Positions 23,626 through 30,400 of a stretch of DNA of 64,000 bases are shown piece by piece. The notes under the pieces are model-generated. The model made no database searches. It saw nothing but the letters and a program-made list of their open reading frames with translations, and was not told the origin of the DNA. The number at the start of each line of letters is the position of its first letter. Positions within the stretch are counted from its first letter, which is position 1. Source of the DNA: Siphonobacter aquaeclarae (lineage in GTDB: Bacteria; Bacteroidota; Bacteroidia; Cytophagales; Spirosomataceae); assembly GCF_900103285.1 (NCBI RefSeq), contig NZ_FNGS01000001.1, forward strand, positions 186,001 through 250,000. The letters run 5' to 3'. The position numbers were made by a program, and so were the translations under genes.

Positions 23626-24057
23626 ATGAAAACCCATCAGCCTGTTGCGATCGTCTGTATTTTTACCTGGATCGGCTTTGTCTGCGCGATCAGTTTTCTC
23701 GAAGCCTGGCTGAAGTTTCAGGCTCCGGGTGTGACGATCCCGATTGGTTTGGGTATCGGGCGACTGGTGTTCTCCGCCCTGAACAAAATCGAATGGGTAT
23801 TCGCGGTAGCGGTGCTTGGAAGCGCTTTCCTGAGTCGGAACGGGCTTCGCTGGCCGCTGTGGATTGCCATCGCCATTCTGGTTGCGGAGACGGTCTGGTT
23901 GCTGCCGGCGCTCGACGCGCGTGCGGAAGAGATGATCCATCACCGACCGGTTCCGCCGTCGCGCCTTCACATAATGTACATCGCAATGGAAGGCGTCAAA
24001 GTTTTCGCATTGCTGGCCGGCGGTCTGGCGCTGTTCAAAAGTACCCGCTACCGGTAG
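23626..24057 (+). CDS. small membrane protein of unknown function, four helices
   Basis: The 143-residue protein is almost entirely membrane-embedded. Four hydrophobic helices can be seen: VAIVCIFTWIGFVCAISFLEAW, LVFSALNKIEWVFAVAVLGSAFL, WPLWIAIAILVAETVWLLP, and MEGVKVFALLAGGLALF near the end. A short loop with HHRPVPPSRLH precedes the last helix. No family motif was recognised with confidence. Its 3' end overlaps the end of the convergent carbonic-anhydrase gene by 10 bases, and it is transcribed alone. Confidence 0.75.
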   Translation: MKTHQPVAIVCIFTWIGFVCAISFLEAWLKFQAPGVTIPIGLGIGRLVFSALNKIEWVFAVAVLGSAFLSRNGLRWPLWIAIAILVAETVWLLPALDARAEEMIHHRPVPPSRLHIMYIAMEGVKVFALLAGGLALFKSTRYR

Positions 24058-24785
24058 TATTCGTCGAGCAGGTCCCGGCGCTCTCCCGTTTCGAGGTGAA
24101 TGCACTCCAGGCGCTTGTAGGAACAAAATGAACCCATATCGCGGTCGCCGTTGATGAATACCGCGCCGGCGAGTATTACATACCGGCAGGGATAGCTGGT
24201 TTGACTCACGAGTACATCAATGCGCTGATTGATGGCTTCATACATGACTTCTGTCGCTTCAAACAAGGAATGCGGAGCGTTTTTAATGCGGCTTTCTTCT
24301 TTCAGGAAAATCTGTTCGATGGTGTTCATCTGGTAATCGAGGTCCGTCACCGCACCCGGCCGGATGTTTCCGGCAAGTAACTTTCCGAGCGCACCTTTGG
24401 CGGCGCCACAGCACGCAGAAGCCTGACTCTGGCCGATCCGGCTGATTTCTCCCAAAGATCCTTCCTTGGTAACCCCGATATGCGGCGCGAAAAAGACGAG
24501 TACGGCTCCGTCTTCCGGCACGTGATGGGCGAAGGCGTTCATACCGGTCACGCCGGCGAAGGGGAAACCGTCGAGGCCGCCGAGGTGGAAAGGACCTAGC
24601 ATTTCCAGCGCCCGCGGAGGATACTGAATCGCATTTACGTCGTCGCAGCAGAGGCTGTCGGCATGCATGATCTGCCGGGGCGAAAGACCCAGCGTGCGCC
24701 CGAGGGTATCGAGGAGGCGGTCGACGGTTTCAATAGACGTCAGCGCATTCGGATACCAGCGCCGTACTGTTTCGAGGTGGTTCAT
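24048..24785 (-). CDS. LCIB/LCIC-type (theta/beta-like) carbonic anhydrase homologue
   Basis: The 245-residue protein matches the limiting-CO2-inducible B/C carbonic anhydrase family (PF18599) in its conserved blocks: HADSLCCDDVNAIQ, LGGLDGFPFAGVTGMNAFAHHVP, VFFAPHIGVTKEG and SQASACCGAAKGAL. By analogy with algal members the zinc ligands should be Cys46, His87 and Cys126, with Asp48 next to the first ligand. These are all present, so hydration of CO2 to bicarbonate is plausible. The start is the ATG giving MNHLETVRRWYP, 4 bases after the bestrophin stop; a TTG further upstream is less likely. No signal peptide is seen, so the enzyme should act in the cytoplasm. The family call is from recalled motifs and was not searched. 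Confidence 0.85.
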   Translation of the reverse strand: MNHLETVRRWYPNALTSIETVDRLLDTLGRTLGLSPRQIMHADSLCCDDVNAIQYPPRALEMLGPFHLGGLDGFPFAGVTGMNAFAHHVPEDGAVLVFFAPHIGVTKEGSLGEISRIGQSQASACCGAAKGALGKLLAGNIRPGAVTDLDYQMNTIEQIFLKEESRIKNAPHSLFEATEVMYEAINQRIDVLVSQTSYPCRYVILAGAVFINGDRDMGSFCSYKRLECIHLETGERRDLLDEYYR

Positions 24786-24789
24786 GATG

Positions 24790-25797
24790 TTAAAGAACAA
24801 TGTTGTTAACAGGTTGAATAGCAGGGGGAAGGTCGGTTTCGCCGAGCATTTCGCGCAGGTCGATTTCGATCGTGCGGGAAATCTGGGTGATGGGTACGTC
24901 GTTGGCGCTGCCTTCGAACGGGTTTTCGGTGGCCTCGCCGGTCATATCAAGCGCCACGAATACCCAGCCGAGAAGCGTACTGAACGGAATGGAGAGCCAG
25001 ACAAATTCCGGTCCGAACTTTGCGAATTCCTGTACCATCCCGAACGGAATCAGGATGCATAGCAGGTTGGTAAAAAACAGGTTCAGGCTGGAATACTGCC
25101 GCGGATAGGGGAAGTTTTTAATGCGCTCGCACCGGCCCTGCTGGTCATACAGGTCTTTGAGGTGGGTTTCGAGCGCGACGAAGTTGTAATCCGTCAACAA
25201 TCCCGCTTCGTTCAGCCCGCGCAGCTCGTCAGACTGCCGGGACAGCAGCTGCGTCGCCTTGTTTTTCCGGGCGAGGATATACTGTCGTTCTTCTTCTGGC
25301 AAAAAAGGCTTCAGTTCTTCGCCCATGTCCGATTGCCATTCCGGCACGACGTAATACCGCTTCTGATATTCCTGATTATACCTCCGTTTTTTGATGTATT
25401 CCCAGCTGCGTACTTCGCGCAGCTGAAACCGCAGGGCTGTCAGCCACGCGATGTGCCGGTAGATCAGCCGTTGGTGGATATCCTGTTCGAGGGCAGGGTC
25501 ATCGGCGCGAACCATACTGCGCACGAGTATTCCGAAGCTGCGGCTCTGGTTGATAATGCCTCCGTAAATCTGCCGGGCTTCCCAGGTACGGTTGTAGGTC
25601 TGGGTGTTCCGGAAACCGGAGATAAACGCCGTCACCGTTCCGAGCAACGCAACCGGCACCCAGGGCATGGTAAACCACTTGCCGCCGGTGCAGGCATAGA
25701 TAATCGCCGGAATGGTGCTGATGAGAAGGAGTTTGTAGATCTGGAAGCGTGTCCAGGGGATGTAGTGGCTGAGGTGGTAGTGATCGCCTGTGTTCAT
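24790..25797 (-). CDS. bestrophin-family (UPF0187) anion channel
   Basis: This 335-residue membrane protein carries the bestrophin signature. FISGFRNTQTYNRTWEARQIYGGIINQSR lies around residues 58-87, after two hydrophobic helices near the N-terminus. The C-terminal block reads VALDMTGEATENPFEGSAND, then ITQISRTIEIDLREMLGE, the conserved end of bacterial bestrophins. The family forms pentameric channels. Animal members conduct chloride and bicarbonate, bacterial homologues can conduct cations, and algal thylakoid members are linked to bicarbonate movement. Its stop lies 4 bases before the carbonic anhydrase start, and the methyltransferase gene ends 16 bases before its own start. Bicarbonate is therefore the likeliest cargo (inference). 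Confidence 0.92.
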   Translation of the reverse strand: MNTGDHYHLSHYIPWTRFQIYKLLLISTIPAIIYACTGGKWFTMPWVPVALLGTVTAFISGFRNTQTYNRTWEARQIYGGIINQSRSFGILVRSMVRADDPALEQDIHQRLIYRHIAWLTALRFQLREVRSWEYIKKRRYNQEYQKRYYVVPEWQSDMGEELKPFLPEEERQYILARKNKATQLLSRQSDELRGLNEAGLLTDYNFVALETHLKDLYDQQGRCERIKNFPYPRQYSSLNLFFTNLLCILIPFGMVQEFAKFGPEFVWLSIPFSTLLGWVFVALDMTGEATENPFEGSANDVPITQISRTIEIDLREMLGETDLPPAIQPVNNIVL

Positions 25798-25813
25798 GAA
25801 AAGCAGGGCCGGA

Positions 25814-26335
25814 TTAGGTAGTCGATGATTCGATTAAGGCGGCGTATAAAGGATGGGGGCCGTAGAGAGACGGTCGCTCGCCGAGCTTCCGGATTGTCTG
25901 GTAGCCGACTTGTTCGGCGAGACGGGTCAGCCGGGCGAAATCCAGCGGATACGGCACCCAGGGATTTCCTTGCGTCAGCTCATATTCAACAATCAGGAGG
26001 GAATGCCGGGTTTGCAGCAGCGGAAACAGCCGCTCCAGAAACGCCTCCGGATGACGGACGTAGTGGAGGGCATTGGCCATCAGCAACCCGTCGGCCGGCG
26101 GAACCGGCAGCGCTTCGGACTCAAAATCGGCCTGCATGCCGTGAATCCGGACGCCGTCGACAACCGGCTCGAGCCGCAACGGCTGCCGGTCTACCGCATA
26201 AATAGTACTACCCTGGCGCAGCAACCGGGCCAGCGCACGGGTGAATGTTCCTCCGCCTGCACCGAGCTCAAGCCAGACAGCCTTGGCCGGATCAGGGGAA
26301 AACCGGATCAGATCAGTCGCTTCCTGAATGGTCAT
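25814..26335 (-). CDS. class I SAM-dependent methyltransferase
   Basis: The 173-residue protein is short for the family but complete. It has the SAM-binding glycine loop VWLELGAGGGTFTRALARLL (about 20-39), the acidic residue at the end of strand 2 in IYAVDRQPLRL, and motif III-like ADGLLMANALHYVRHPEAF. The rest matches a minimal Rossmann methyltransferase core. The acceptor is unknown. It is the first gene of a tight three-gene operon with the bestrophin channel and the LCIB-type carbonic anhydrase. Whether it shares their function or only their transcript cannot be decided here. Confidence 0.87.
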   Translation of the reverse strand: MTIQEATDLIRFSPDPAKAVWLELGAGGGTFTRALARLLRQGSTIYAVDRQPLRLEPVVDGVRIHGMQADFESEALPVPPADGLLMANALHYVRHPEAFLERLFPLLQTRHSLLIVEYELTQGNPWVPYPLDFARLTRLAEQVGYQTIRKLGERPSLYGPHPLYAALIESSTT

Positions 26336-26448: not shown

Positions 26449-27279
26449 TCAGGGATGCCGCTCCGGAACCTCCCGAAATTCCAGCCAGAAGCCGGCTGTC
26501 TGTTCCGGAGAAAGGAACAGGCTTTTCCCGGCGGCAACCGGCCTTATTCCGGCTTGTTCGAACAGGGCCCGCGTCGTTTTCAGGCTTTTAACGCGCAGCG
26601 TCGCGCCGATGATCGGGCGATGAGCCAACCGCTGGTAAGATGCGGGTAGCAGGACGATCTCTCCGTCCCGGAAGCGGGTAACTTCGGCGTTGAGCTTCGC
26701 GGGTATCCGGACTGTTTCCCGGGTGGTCGTTCCCCCGAATACATGCAGCAACTCCCGCAGCGCCTTCGGATCATCGGGCGCTAGCCAGACGCTGATGAGT
26801 GACTCCGCGCCGTTGGCATGCGCGAAATGTTCGGGTTTGTCGGTGGGCGACTGGTTTCCCGAACCCAGGAAATAGGTGTCCAGCGCTCCGCGAAAGCTAT
26901 CCCCTGTATGCGGGATACCAGCCGCGTCGAGGCGGCTGCGGAGTGTTGCGCGGTCGGGCGCGAGGAAGGCCAGATACGCCGGGCCGTCGCCCTGTACGAG
27001 CAGGCGACGGTAGTTGGCTGTGAGTTCATCTTTCGCTTCCGGAGCGGTGATGATCTCCATTTCGGTGCCATCCCGAAACTTGATGTGCCGGTTGCGGATA
27101 CCGTTGTCATGCGGACGGCCCTCTTTCAGCGCAAAGCCCAGTTTCCGGAAGCGGGCCGCCGCCGATTCCAGATCAGAAACCGCCACAGGAACATGGTCCG
27201 GGCCGGTGACGAGCGGAGCGGACTGGGCCGTGCTGATGAACGGAATCGCCCAGAAGAGAATAAAAAGGAAGCGGATCAT
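26449..27279 (-). CDS. secreted glyoxalase-fold (VOC superfamily) protein
   Basis: The 276-residue product has a signal peptide (MIRFLFILFWAIPFISTAQS) and then a VOC/glyoxalase-like domain. The first half-module starts at TGPDHVPVAVSDLESAAARFRKLGFAL and contains IRNRHIKFRDGTEMEIIT. A second module lies in the C-terminal part (IIGATLRVKSLKTTRALFEQAGI, ending with FWLEFREV). The arrangement fits the Glyoxalase_3-like family. H and E residues at the usual metal positions (DHV, MEII) are present, but the reaction is unknown. The frame extends upstream without a signal peptide, so the inner ATG was chosen. It diverges from the Oar-like receptor. Confidence 0.85.
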   Translation of the reverse strand: MIRFLFILFWAIPFISTAQSAPLVTGPDHVPVAVSDLESAAARFRKLGFALKEGRPHDNGIRNRHIKFRDGTEMEIITAPEAKDELTANYRRLLVQGDGPAYLAFLAPDRATLRSRLDAAGIPHTGDSFRGALDTYFLGSGNQSPTDKPEHFAHANGAESLISVWLAPDDPKALRELLHVFGGTTTRETVRIPAKLNAEVTRFRDGEIVLLPASYQRLAHRPIIGATLRVKSLKTTRALFEQAGIRPVAAGKSLFLSPEQTAGFWLEFREVPERHP

Positions 27280-27442
27280 ACCGGATTTTTCCGAAAGAAA
27301 CGAAAGAATCCGACTACGGGAAACAGGCCGTTTCGGGCTACTGCCGAACGGAAACATCACATATCGGTAACATTTCCTTAACCGAATCCGCGGCACGGGC
27401 TCACTTGTTTTGCAGCCGGAAAACTTCCCTTCAGAAAACTGC

Positions 27443-30400
27443 ATGAAACGTTTTTTACTTGGCTGCATTCTCCTGTGTCTTTCCTGCCTGTCTTCCGCGC
27501 TCATGGCGCAGACGACCCAGGCATCGATCTCAGGGGTCATCTATGAAAATGAAAACACGCCGCTTGCCGGAGCTACGGTACGCGTGCGGAACGAATCGAC
27601 CGGCTTCTCGACCGGTACCATCACCAACGCCAAAGGAGAATACTCATTCAAGGAGCTTCCGCTCGGCGGACCCTACACGATCGTTTCGACCTTCGTGGGT
27701 TTCGGCGAACAACGGCGCACCGGCTACTCCCTCAACCAGGGCGATGCCGTGAAAATCAACCTGAAACTCGAAGACGCGGGTAAAACGCTGGAGGTCGTTC
27801 AGGTCGTCGGATCCGGTATCAAAAACAAAATTGAAAACATCGGCGCAGCGACGGCCATTTCAGCCCGCGCCATTACGCGCCTGCCGGTAAACGGTCGGAA
27901 TTTCACCTCGCTTACGGATCTTTCTCCGCTGAGCCGGGGTGGTAACCTGTCGGGCCAGCTGGGATCGTCGACCAACTACACGATCGACGGGATGAACGCG
28001 AAGAACCCTACTTCTGCCGGTTCCACGACCAGCCGGAGTGGCGCGCCGTATTCCATTTCGATGGAAGCGGTACGGGAGTTCAAAGTCGTCACCAACCAGT
28101 ATGACGTAACGCAGGGCCGCGCAGGCGGCGGTGCGGTCAGCGCGGTAACCAAGTCCGGTACCAATACCATGACCGGTAGCATCTTCAACTATACCCGTGC
28201 CAACTGGCTCTCCAGCCGGTACGACATCCGCGGTAACCGCCGGTCGGTGAAGTATTCCACCAACCAGTTCGGCTTCTCCCTGGGTGGTCCGATTATCAAG
28301 GACAAACTGCACTACTTTGTGGTATGGGATCACCAGGCGGATTCGCGCCCGCTGATTATTGCCGATGTTCAGTCGCCCGCCGACGAACTTCGCTTCAACG
28401 TAAACCGCGCAACGCTCGACAAATTCGTCGACATCGCCCGCAGCAAGTACGGCGTCGCCAACACGCCTCAATACGGTTCTTTCGGAAAGAAACGCGGTTC
28501 TGACGCTATTTTCGGTCGGATTGACTGGCAGATCGACCAGAAGAACCTGCTGACGATCCGGGACAATTACACCAGCGATCGCAACAAGCTCGGCCTGGCA
28601 GACAACACGTCGATCAACATCCTGGAGTCGTACGGCAATGACTACAACATGGACAACAGCCTCCTCGCCAGCCTCCGGACGGCCCTGAACCCGAAAGTGA
28701 CGAACGAGCTGAAACTCCAGCACCTGTACACGTACCAGAAGAGCAGTCCCGGCGATCAGCTGCCTGCGGCGAATATTCCGCGTGCGATTGTAGAGAACGT
28801 CGCGTCGACAATTGACGGGCAGACCAAAACCACCAATATTCAAATGGGCGGTCACCGCTTCGCGCAGGAAGGCTTCACGAACAATGTCTTTCAGCTCGTC
28901 GACAACCTGTACTACAACACAAACAAGGCGGAATTTACCTTCGGCATTGACCTGATGTATACCCATGCCAAGTCGAAATACGGCAGTGAAGTAAACGGCC
29001 GCTTCCACTACAATCAGGAAGTCGTCAACAACGTGACGATCAGCGCACTGGAGAACTTCGAAAACCTCAAGCCGTACCGTTATTACCGCGAAGTACCCCT
29101 GATGGACGACTGGACCGTGCGCGGCGGCATCTTCAACGCCGGCGCATACGGACAGATGAAAACAAAGCTGGCGCTGGGCCTCGATCTGACCGCCGGCTTG
29201 CGCTTCGATTACGCACACTACCCGTCGTCGCCGCTGAACCAGCTGGTACTTGACGAAACCGGCGTGCGGACCGACAACAAGATCAAATCGTTTGTGGTAC
29301 AGCCGCGTATCCAGTTGACATGGGATGTGAACGACCGCCACACGGATATCTTCCGTGCCGGCGCGGGTATCTTCTCGTCCGACATCAACAACTACATGGT
29401 TATCAACAACCTGACGTTCGACGGCAAGCACCTGGCAACGGTGGACGTGCGCGCCCCGAACATCCCGACGCCGGATTTCGCCGCCTACCGGAAGGATTAC
29501 AACGCGATCCCGACGCTGGCGCAGTTTCAGCTTCCGACGATCAATACGAACGGGTCAAATGTGCACGTTCCGATTGTCTACAAAGCCAACCTGTCGTACA
29601 GCAAGTACCTGACAGACAAACTGCGGGTAGGTATCGCGGGATATATGTCGCTGGGCCGGAATAATTACATGTATGTGGACCGGAACATGGTGAAAGACCC
29701 GTTCTTTCGCCTCGCTAACGAAGACAACCGCGGCGTATATGTTCCTGCTTCGAGCATGCCGACCAACGGCGCCGGCGACTGGCTTCAGGGCCGCATCAGT
29801 CAGAAACTCGGCCGGGTGCTGGAGCTGAACTCGGAAGGAAAAGTGAACCAGTTCGCAGTTGTGGTCGACGCTACCTATCAGTACTTCAAAGACGGCGAAA
29901 TCACGGCGAGCTATACCTGGAACGATGCGAAGGACAATACCTCCTTCAACGGAAACGTGGCGAATACCGCAACGCTCTCTCTCCCCGTAAAAGACGACCC
30001 GCGTAATCTCAGCAAGATGAGCTACTCCGACGGGCAGTTCCGTCATAAAGTAGTTGTTTACGGAACGCTGCCGACCTTTGCCGGCTTCAAAGTAGGCTTC
30101 CGGTTCTCCGGTATGGGCGGTACACGGTACTCCCTGCTCTCCGGCGGAAATACCAATGCTGACTTCGTATCAGGTACGAACGACCTCGCCTTTATTTTCG
30201 ACCGGAAGAACGCTGCCGTACCTGAAAACGTCAAAACCGGTCTTCAGGGCCTGCTCGACAGCCCGACGGCCAGTCAGAGCCTCAAGGACTATATCCTCAA
30301 ATACGAAGGTAAAATGGCCGAGCGGAACGGTGGTATCAACGGTTTTTACAGTACGATCGACCTCCGGGTATCGAAGTACTTTAAGATCTACAAAAACCAC

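Follow-up and report, generated by a model that had tools for sequence, protein, structure and literature searches.

A three-gene unit in Siphonobacter aquaeclarae

Three consecutive genes on the minus strand of the window, the 64,000-nucleotide stretch of S. aquaeclarae DNA analysed here, encode in this order a methyltransferase, a bestrophin and a homologue of the LCIB-type (theta) carbonic anhydrases (CAs); the intergenic gaps measure 16 and 4 bases. The first gene of the unit (26335-25814) encodes a SAM-dependent methyltransferase of 173 aa (PF13489 Methyltransf_23, 39 bits, E 6e-10). It is followed by the gene for a 335-aa Bestrophin_2 channel subunit (25797-24790; PF25539, 158 bits against a cut-off of 27, E 4.3e-46) and, across a 4-base CATC spacer on the same strand (24786-24789), by that for the 245-aa LCIB homologue (24785-24048). 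The junction reads ...GTT CTT TAA catc ATG AAC CAC, the LCIB start being the ATG at 24785. The identity, order, strand and spacing of the bestrophin and LCIB genes given in the original prediction are borne out by the ORF coordinates and by Pfam. A gene for a Glyoxalase_3-domain protein lies 113 bases upstream of the methyltransferase gene on the minus strand (26449-27540; PF13468, 54.5 bits); nothing indicates that it is part of the unit, and it was not a recurrent neighbour in the neighbourhood clustering of related loci. On the plus strand, a membrane-like protein of 143 aa with no Pfam match is encoded convergently with the LCIB gene (23626-24057), the two 3' ends overlapping by 10 bases.

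The LCIB homologue, whose gene is single-copy in the S. aquaeclarae genome, matches PF18599 (LCIB_C_CA) at 215.9 bits against a curated cut-off of 25 (E 5.8e-64) over profile positions 4-222 of 223, a search that had been named in advance as a check on its family. Its sequence also matches 6kfs, 9vzj/9w05 and the diatom protein PtLCIB4 (5b5y) in the PDB. The AlphaFold model (pLDDT 94.7) superposes on PtLCIB4 and 6kfs with TM scores of 0.81-0.84, and the best eight PDB structure matches are all LCIB-family proteins (TM (query) 0.66-0.84), with beta-CAs trailing far behind. Profile search and fold comparison together confirm the membership of the LCIB/LCIC family that had been proposed. The residues of a Cys-His-Cys site and the Asp, Arg and His around it are present in the sequence as C46, D48, H88, H102, R116 and C126. 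PtLCIB4 and related theta-CAs have the same fold and the same six residues, the alignment giving identical numbering in PtLCIB4 and the protein studied here (C46, S/C47, D48, H88, H102, R116, C126); PDB 5b5z is the structure of the PtLCIB4 H88A mutant. PtLCIB4 differs in being only 25% identical and in coming from a plastid-bearing host, and we know of no gene partner for it.

Among 45 aligned homologues, D48, H88 and R116 are kept in all, and C46, H102 and C126 in 44. Two of the three zinc ligands first put forward, Cys46 and Cys126, are thus conserved as expected; the third, His87, is replaced by Ser in 22 of the 45 and is therefore no family zinc ligand. Judging from the alignment, the conserved site histidines are H88 and H102. 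The sole exception at C46, H102 and C126 is a homologue 51% identical to the S. aquaeclarae protein (L126:1450-2166), in which G, N and S replace these residues and which is probably non-catalytic. Two other leads were dropped: phmmer matches of the LCIB homologue to TAL effectors, no stretch of which was significant alone and which were gone with the profile search, and the isocyanate chemistry of AsqI as an LCIB precedent, AsqI being described as hemocyanin-like rather than LCIB. A point against CA activity of the homologue is that Chlamydomonas LCIB itself is reported to have shown little activity in vitro.

The bestrophin is one of three Bestrophin_2 proteins in the genome listing. Its single-chain AlphaFold model (pLDDT 91.3) gives TM scores of about 0.7 (query) and 0.9 (target) to KpBest of Klebsiella (4wd7), which its sequence also matches, with about 27% identity over the structure. 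While sharing the bestrophin fold, the two proteins differ in that the S. aquaeclarae channel has a longer cytoplasmic part, an LCIB partner and the neck residues T54/F58/F62, as opposed to I62/I66/F70 in KpBest; animal anion channels have I76/F80/F84. KpBest, its best-studied relative, is a cation (Na+) channel, so that permeability to anions or HCO3- is not a given. We know of no physiological role for bacterial bestrophins. A conserved (N/S)NI(L/V/I)(M/L) motif at the end of the LCIB-linked bestrophins was considered as a docking tail and rejected: the same ending is found in a same-subfamily bestrophin (L141) of a genome without LCIB, and similar endings in other Bestrophin_2 proteins mark it as a subfamily trait. 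Apparent bestrophin-LCIB fusions at two loci (L116, L117) were likewise discarded: each gene has its own stop, and the long frames are out-of-frame ORFs of GC-rich sequence.

No match to Rubisco (PF00016) was found in the 98.7% complete S. aquaeclarae genome. The earlier remark that no carbon-fixation gene is in view thus holds for Rubisco genome-wide, and an algal-type CO2-concentrating mechanism, which calls for Rubisco in the same cell, does not fit this organism. LCIB would not be the sole CA encoded: searches for the alpha and beta classes gave one beta-CA (PF00484, 193 bits) and no alpha-CA. On contig C7, the beta-CA gene stands directly 3' of a SulP-like transporter gene on the same strand (L111:1432-2064 and L111:2089-3450). 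The SulP-like label is our reading of the sequence rather than a profile match; so read, the two constitute a second transporter and CA pair, of families unrelated to bestrophin and LCIB.

The bestrophin-LCIB pair recurs across Bacteroidota

In two genome draws not chosen by similarity, one of 395 genomes of the phylum and one of 395 of the class, LCIB was found in 35 and 18 genomes, respectively, and Bestrophin_2 in 89 of the phylum draw. The draws supplied 46 loci for inspection, and a bestrophin directly adjoins LCIB in 8 of them (L001, L003, L005, L112, L113, L115, L116 and L117), and all eight are among the 12 loci whose LCIB is at least 50% identical to that of S. aquaeclarae. Chance adjacency would be expected at about 0.1% per genome, a rough figure derived from 3 bestrophins in ~5,200 genes. 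The draw loci were combined with those of a GTDB scan (80 named loci, selected by similarity to the query LCIB) in an LCIB tree of 126 rows, a quick tree with some long branches that fall chiefly beyond the clade of interest. One clade of 92 rows (SH-aLRT 97) has a bestrophin neighbour in 70, against none of the 34 LCIB rows outside it. Bestrophin linkage requires at the fewest 10 label changes on this tree, compared with 41 when labels are shuffled, and the LCIB and bestrophin distances of 66 pairs are correlated (Mantel r 0.72; 0 of 2000 permutations as high).

An arrangement confined to this one genome would have spoken against the original prediction; linked pairs instead occur in ten named families, all of them Bacteroidota: Chitinophagaceae, Cyclobacteriaceae, Cytophagaceae, Flammeovirgaceae, Flavobacteriaceae, Leadbetterellaceae, Saprospiraceae, Sphingobacteriaceae, Spirosomataceae and Weeksellaceae. 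LCIB identity within the linked loci falls to about 50%. Four loci (L065, L072, L100, L105) have the reversed order, LCIB before bestrophin, and the linkage has therefore been kept through rearrangement. A search for plasmid carriage gave no match. Chitinophaga and Sphingobacterium rows nest within Chryseobacterium in the LCIB tree, a topology that suggests horizontal movement. Linked pairs were also seen on single MAG contigs (L078, L092) labelled Blastocatellia (Acidobacteriota) and Limnohabitans (Comamonadaceae), and these may be transfers or binning errors.

In the remaining 22 of the 92 clade members LCIB lacks a bestrophin neighbour, the view for most of them being the locus and not the whole genome. 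One genome with an unlinked LCIB (G190) carries a same-subfamily bestrophin on another contig, and another (G375) has such a bestrophin with no LCIB found in the genome. A second LCIB lineage, bestrophin-free and single-copy, is represented by L006-L030, mostly from f24, a family of the phylum outside the class of S. aquaeclarae in which it is common; its LCIB neighbourhoods are conserved and consist of unrelated genes.

An extended operon with alternative cation partners

A longer operon, which we defined by neighbourhood clustering and by Pfam on representatives, often has the bestrophin-LCIB pair as its last genes. The recurrent order is small AraC-type regulator, SDR, DoxX_2, NTF2-like lipoprotein, aldehyde dehydrogenase and/or methyltransferase, cation partner, bestrophin and LCIB, the AraC and NTF2-like labels being sequence readings rather than profile matches. 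The cation partner is a K+ channel (PF07885) in 31 of the 61 linked named loci and a Na+/H+ exchanger (PF00999) in 11; the two never occur together (hypergeometric 1.3e-4, uncorrected for genome relatedness). The K+ channels carry a conserved (S/T)IG(F/Y)GD filter. Other neighbours among the 61 loci are DoxX (28), NTF2-like proteins (21), SDR (18) and aldehyde dehydrogenase (11), and the redox genes are absent from roughly half of the linked loci as well as from that of S. aquaeclarae. At two further loci (L108:1-2598 and L109:34-2631), a bestrophin gene is followed by a Na+/H+ exchanger gene, with LCIB 3-4 kb downstream on the same strand, an arrangement that supports a bestrophin-exchanger link on its own.

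The locus of S. aquaeclarae is a reduced form of this operon, made up of methyltransferase, bestrophin and LCIB and without a counter-ion gene, since homologues of its methyltransferase (38-42% identity by tblastn) stand inside the extended operon in five other genomes (L032, L033, L035, L037, L075). The methyltransferase, first noted as an open question, is no longer an isolated oddity. The description of the pair as a minimal module is not supported, as in many relatives it comes last in a larger gene set that also encodes a K+ channel or a Na+/H+ exchanger.

Relation to known systems

In Chlamydomonas, LCIB/LCIC interact with the bestrophin-like proteins BST1 and BST3 in the interactome, and knock-down of BST1-3 stops growth on low CO2 (PMC6708349). 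The bacterial pair draws on the same two superfamilies, the LCIB family and the bestrophins. It differs from the algal system in its bacterial rather than thylakoid membrane, in the lack of Rubisco, in an LCIB only 19-20% identical to algal LCIB/LCIC, in a bestrophin of the bacterial/fungal Bestrophin_2 family, and in operon partners that are K+ channels or Na+/H+ exchangers. SulP with beta-CA and MpsAB/DAB resemble it in that a transporter and a CA (or CA-like subunit) are encoded side by side, although their transporter and CA families are unrelated to bestrophin and LCIB. Animal bicarbonate-transport metabolons bring together the same three activities, those of a Na+/H+ exchanger, a bestrophin or other anion channel and a CA; the likeness is offered only as an analogy of parts, not as one of descent or of physical assembly. 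A 2020 review lists theta-CAs in diatoms and green algae only (PMC7215798), and our search of titles, abstracts and text found no description of a bacterial bestrophin-LCIB pair, a provisional result given that most subscription papers fall outside such a search. Both protein families are known; what is, provisionally, new is their pairing in bacteria and the operon with exchangeable cation partners.

A candidate role in bicarbonate handling

We consider it highly probable that LCIB and bestrophin act in one function, and rather more probable than the reverse that this function is the handling of CO2 and HCO3-. From the families, folds, site residues, linkage, co-divergence and alternative cation partners observed, we infer HCO3- conduction, CA activity and joint action of the pair. 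The bestrophin channel, in the inner membrane, would pass HCO3-, and the soluble LCIB-type zinc CA, on the cytoplasmic side, would interconvert CO2 and HCO3- in the channel mouth or close to it. Respiratory CO2 would be hydrated; HCO3- would leave and H+ would stay. The counter-ion would be handled by the gene often found just upstream, either a K+ channel (charge, with exit of KHCO3) or a Na+/H+ exchanger (protons). The alternative cation partners can be read as two counter-ion routes, in which K+ accompanies the departing HCO3- or the remaining protons are exchanged. No other part of the proposal is as open to error, KpBest being the main warning. Induction of the operon by stress, which the set of AraC, SDR, DoxX, NTF2-like and aldehyde dehydrogenase/methyltransferase genes may indicate, is its weakest step. 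Bacterial membranes are inside-negative and an anion channel is passive, which favours exit of HCO3- and makes pH or ion control by HCO3- exit likelier than carbon supply; we hold to this role tentatively, at a little under an even chance.

The original prediction is supported in part: family, fold, operon arrangement, recurrence of the pair and the lack of Rubisco agree with it, but the supply of carboxylases or retention of CO2, which it named among possible roles, is not supported as the likely one. In such a role the pair would feed anaplerotic and biosynthetic carboxylases when CO2 is scarce, by importing inorganic carbon or holding it back, as a heterotroph version of the algal CO2-recapture system. 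The same two families do serve inorganic-carbon accumulation in algae (PMC6708349), and it is established that non-autotrophs depend on CO2 and possess transporter/CA systems (PMC6689103, PMC8552792). An inside-negative potential, however, prevents a passive anion channel from accumulating HCO3-, the genome already has another transporter and CA pair in SulP-like protein and beta-CA, and the recurrent neighbours are K+ channels and Na+/H+ exchangers, not carboxylases; we regard supply as unlikely. Somewhat less unlikely is a stress-detoxification operon in which the pair would help by shifting cytoplasmic pH when electrophiles or aldehydes stress the cell, much as K+ efflux through KefB/KefC does in E. 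coli. Such a role overlaps with pH and ion control and differs in the trigger. The frequency of DoxX, NTF2-like, SDR and aldehyde dehydrogenase genes in the linked loci and the K+ channel within the same operon favour it, but the redox genes are missing from about half of these loci and from that of S. aquaeclarae itself.

LCIB might alternatively regulate the channel or sense CO2/HCO3- for it, with a sensing or slow site, rather than act as a flux enzyme. Close linkage and co-divergence fit such a channel-subunit relation, as does the association of algal LCIB/C with bestrophins (PMC6708349); yet the catalytic residues are all kept in the linked members examined, beyond the needs of a binding role, and we give this explanation a low probability. 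Another substrate is very improbable. Some enzymes of the beta-CA fold hydrolyse COS, CS2 or cyanate, and the LCIB homologue could do so with the bestrophin exporting the resulting anion, but its weak fold similarity to CS2/COS hydrolases (3teo, 3vqj) is common to all beta-CA-fold proteins, LCIB proteins are by far its closest structures, and genes of sulfur or nitrogen metabolism are not among the recurrent members of the operon. Chance adjacency or hitchhiking with no functional link, which the S. aquaeclarae locus alone would not exclude, is scarcely credible: ten families carry the linked pair, its genes occur in either order, and the similarity-independent draws show it in 8 of their 12 clade members. 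The fall in LCIB identity also argues against one recently spread element. A more far-reaching picture is that of a so far undescribed bacterial bicarbonate-transport metabolon, in which LCIB would be docked on a bestrophin HCO3- channel and which, together with an exchangeable cation partner, would control cytoplasmic pH and ions in heterotrophic Bacteroidota; we offer it as a tentative model with somewhat less than an even chance of being correct.

LCIB, treated as a protein of algal carbon concentration, is tied by gene order to bestrophin in a Rubisco-free bacterium and in many of its relatives. The bacterial pair offers a soluble, expressible system in which to ask whether LCIB is an active CA, and a way to test whether the bestrophin carries the bicarbonate of LCIB and whether the two are in contact. 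Such questions bear on the algal system and on plans to transfer it to crops. The pair also provides a candidate function for bacterial bestrophins and, if the proposed metabolon is true, the partnership between LCIB and bestrophins in algal CO2 concentration would gain a non-photosynthetic counterpart.
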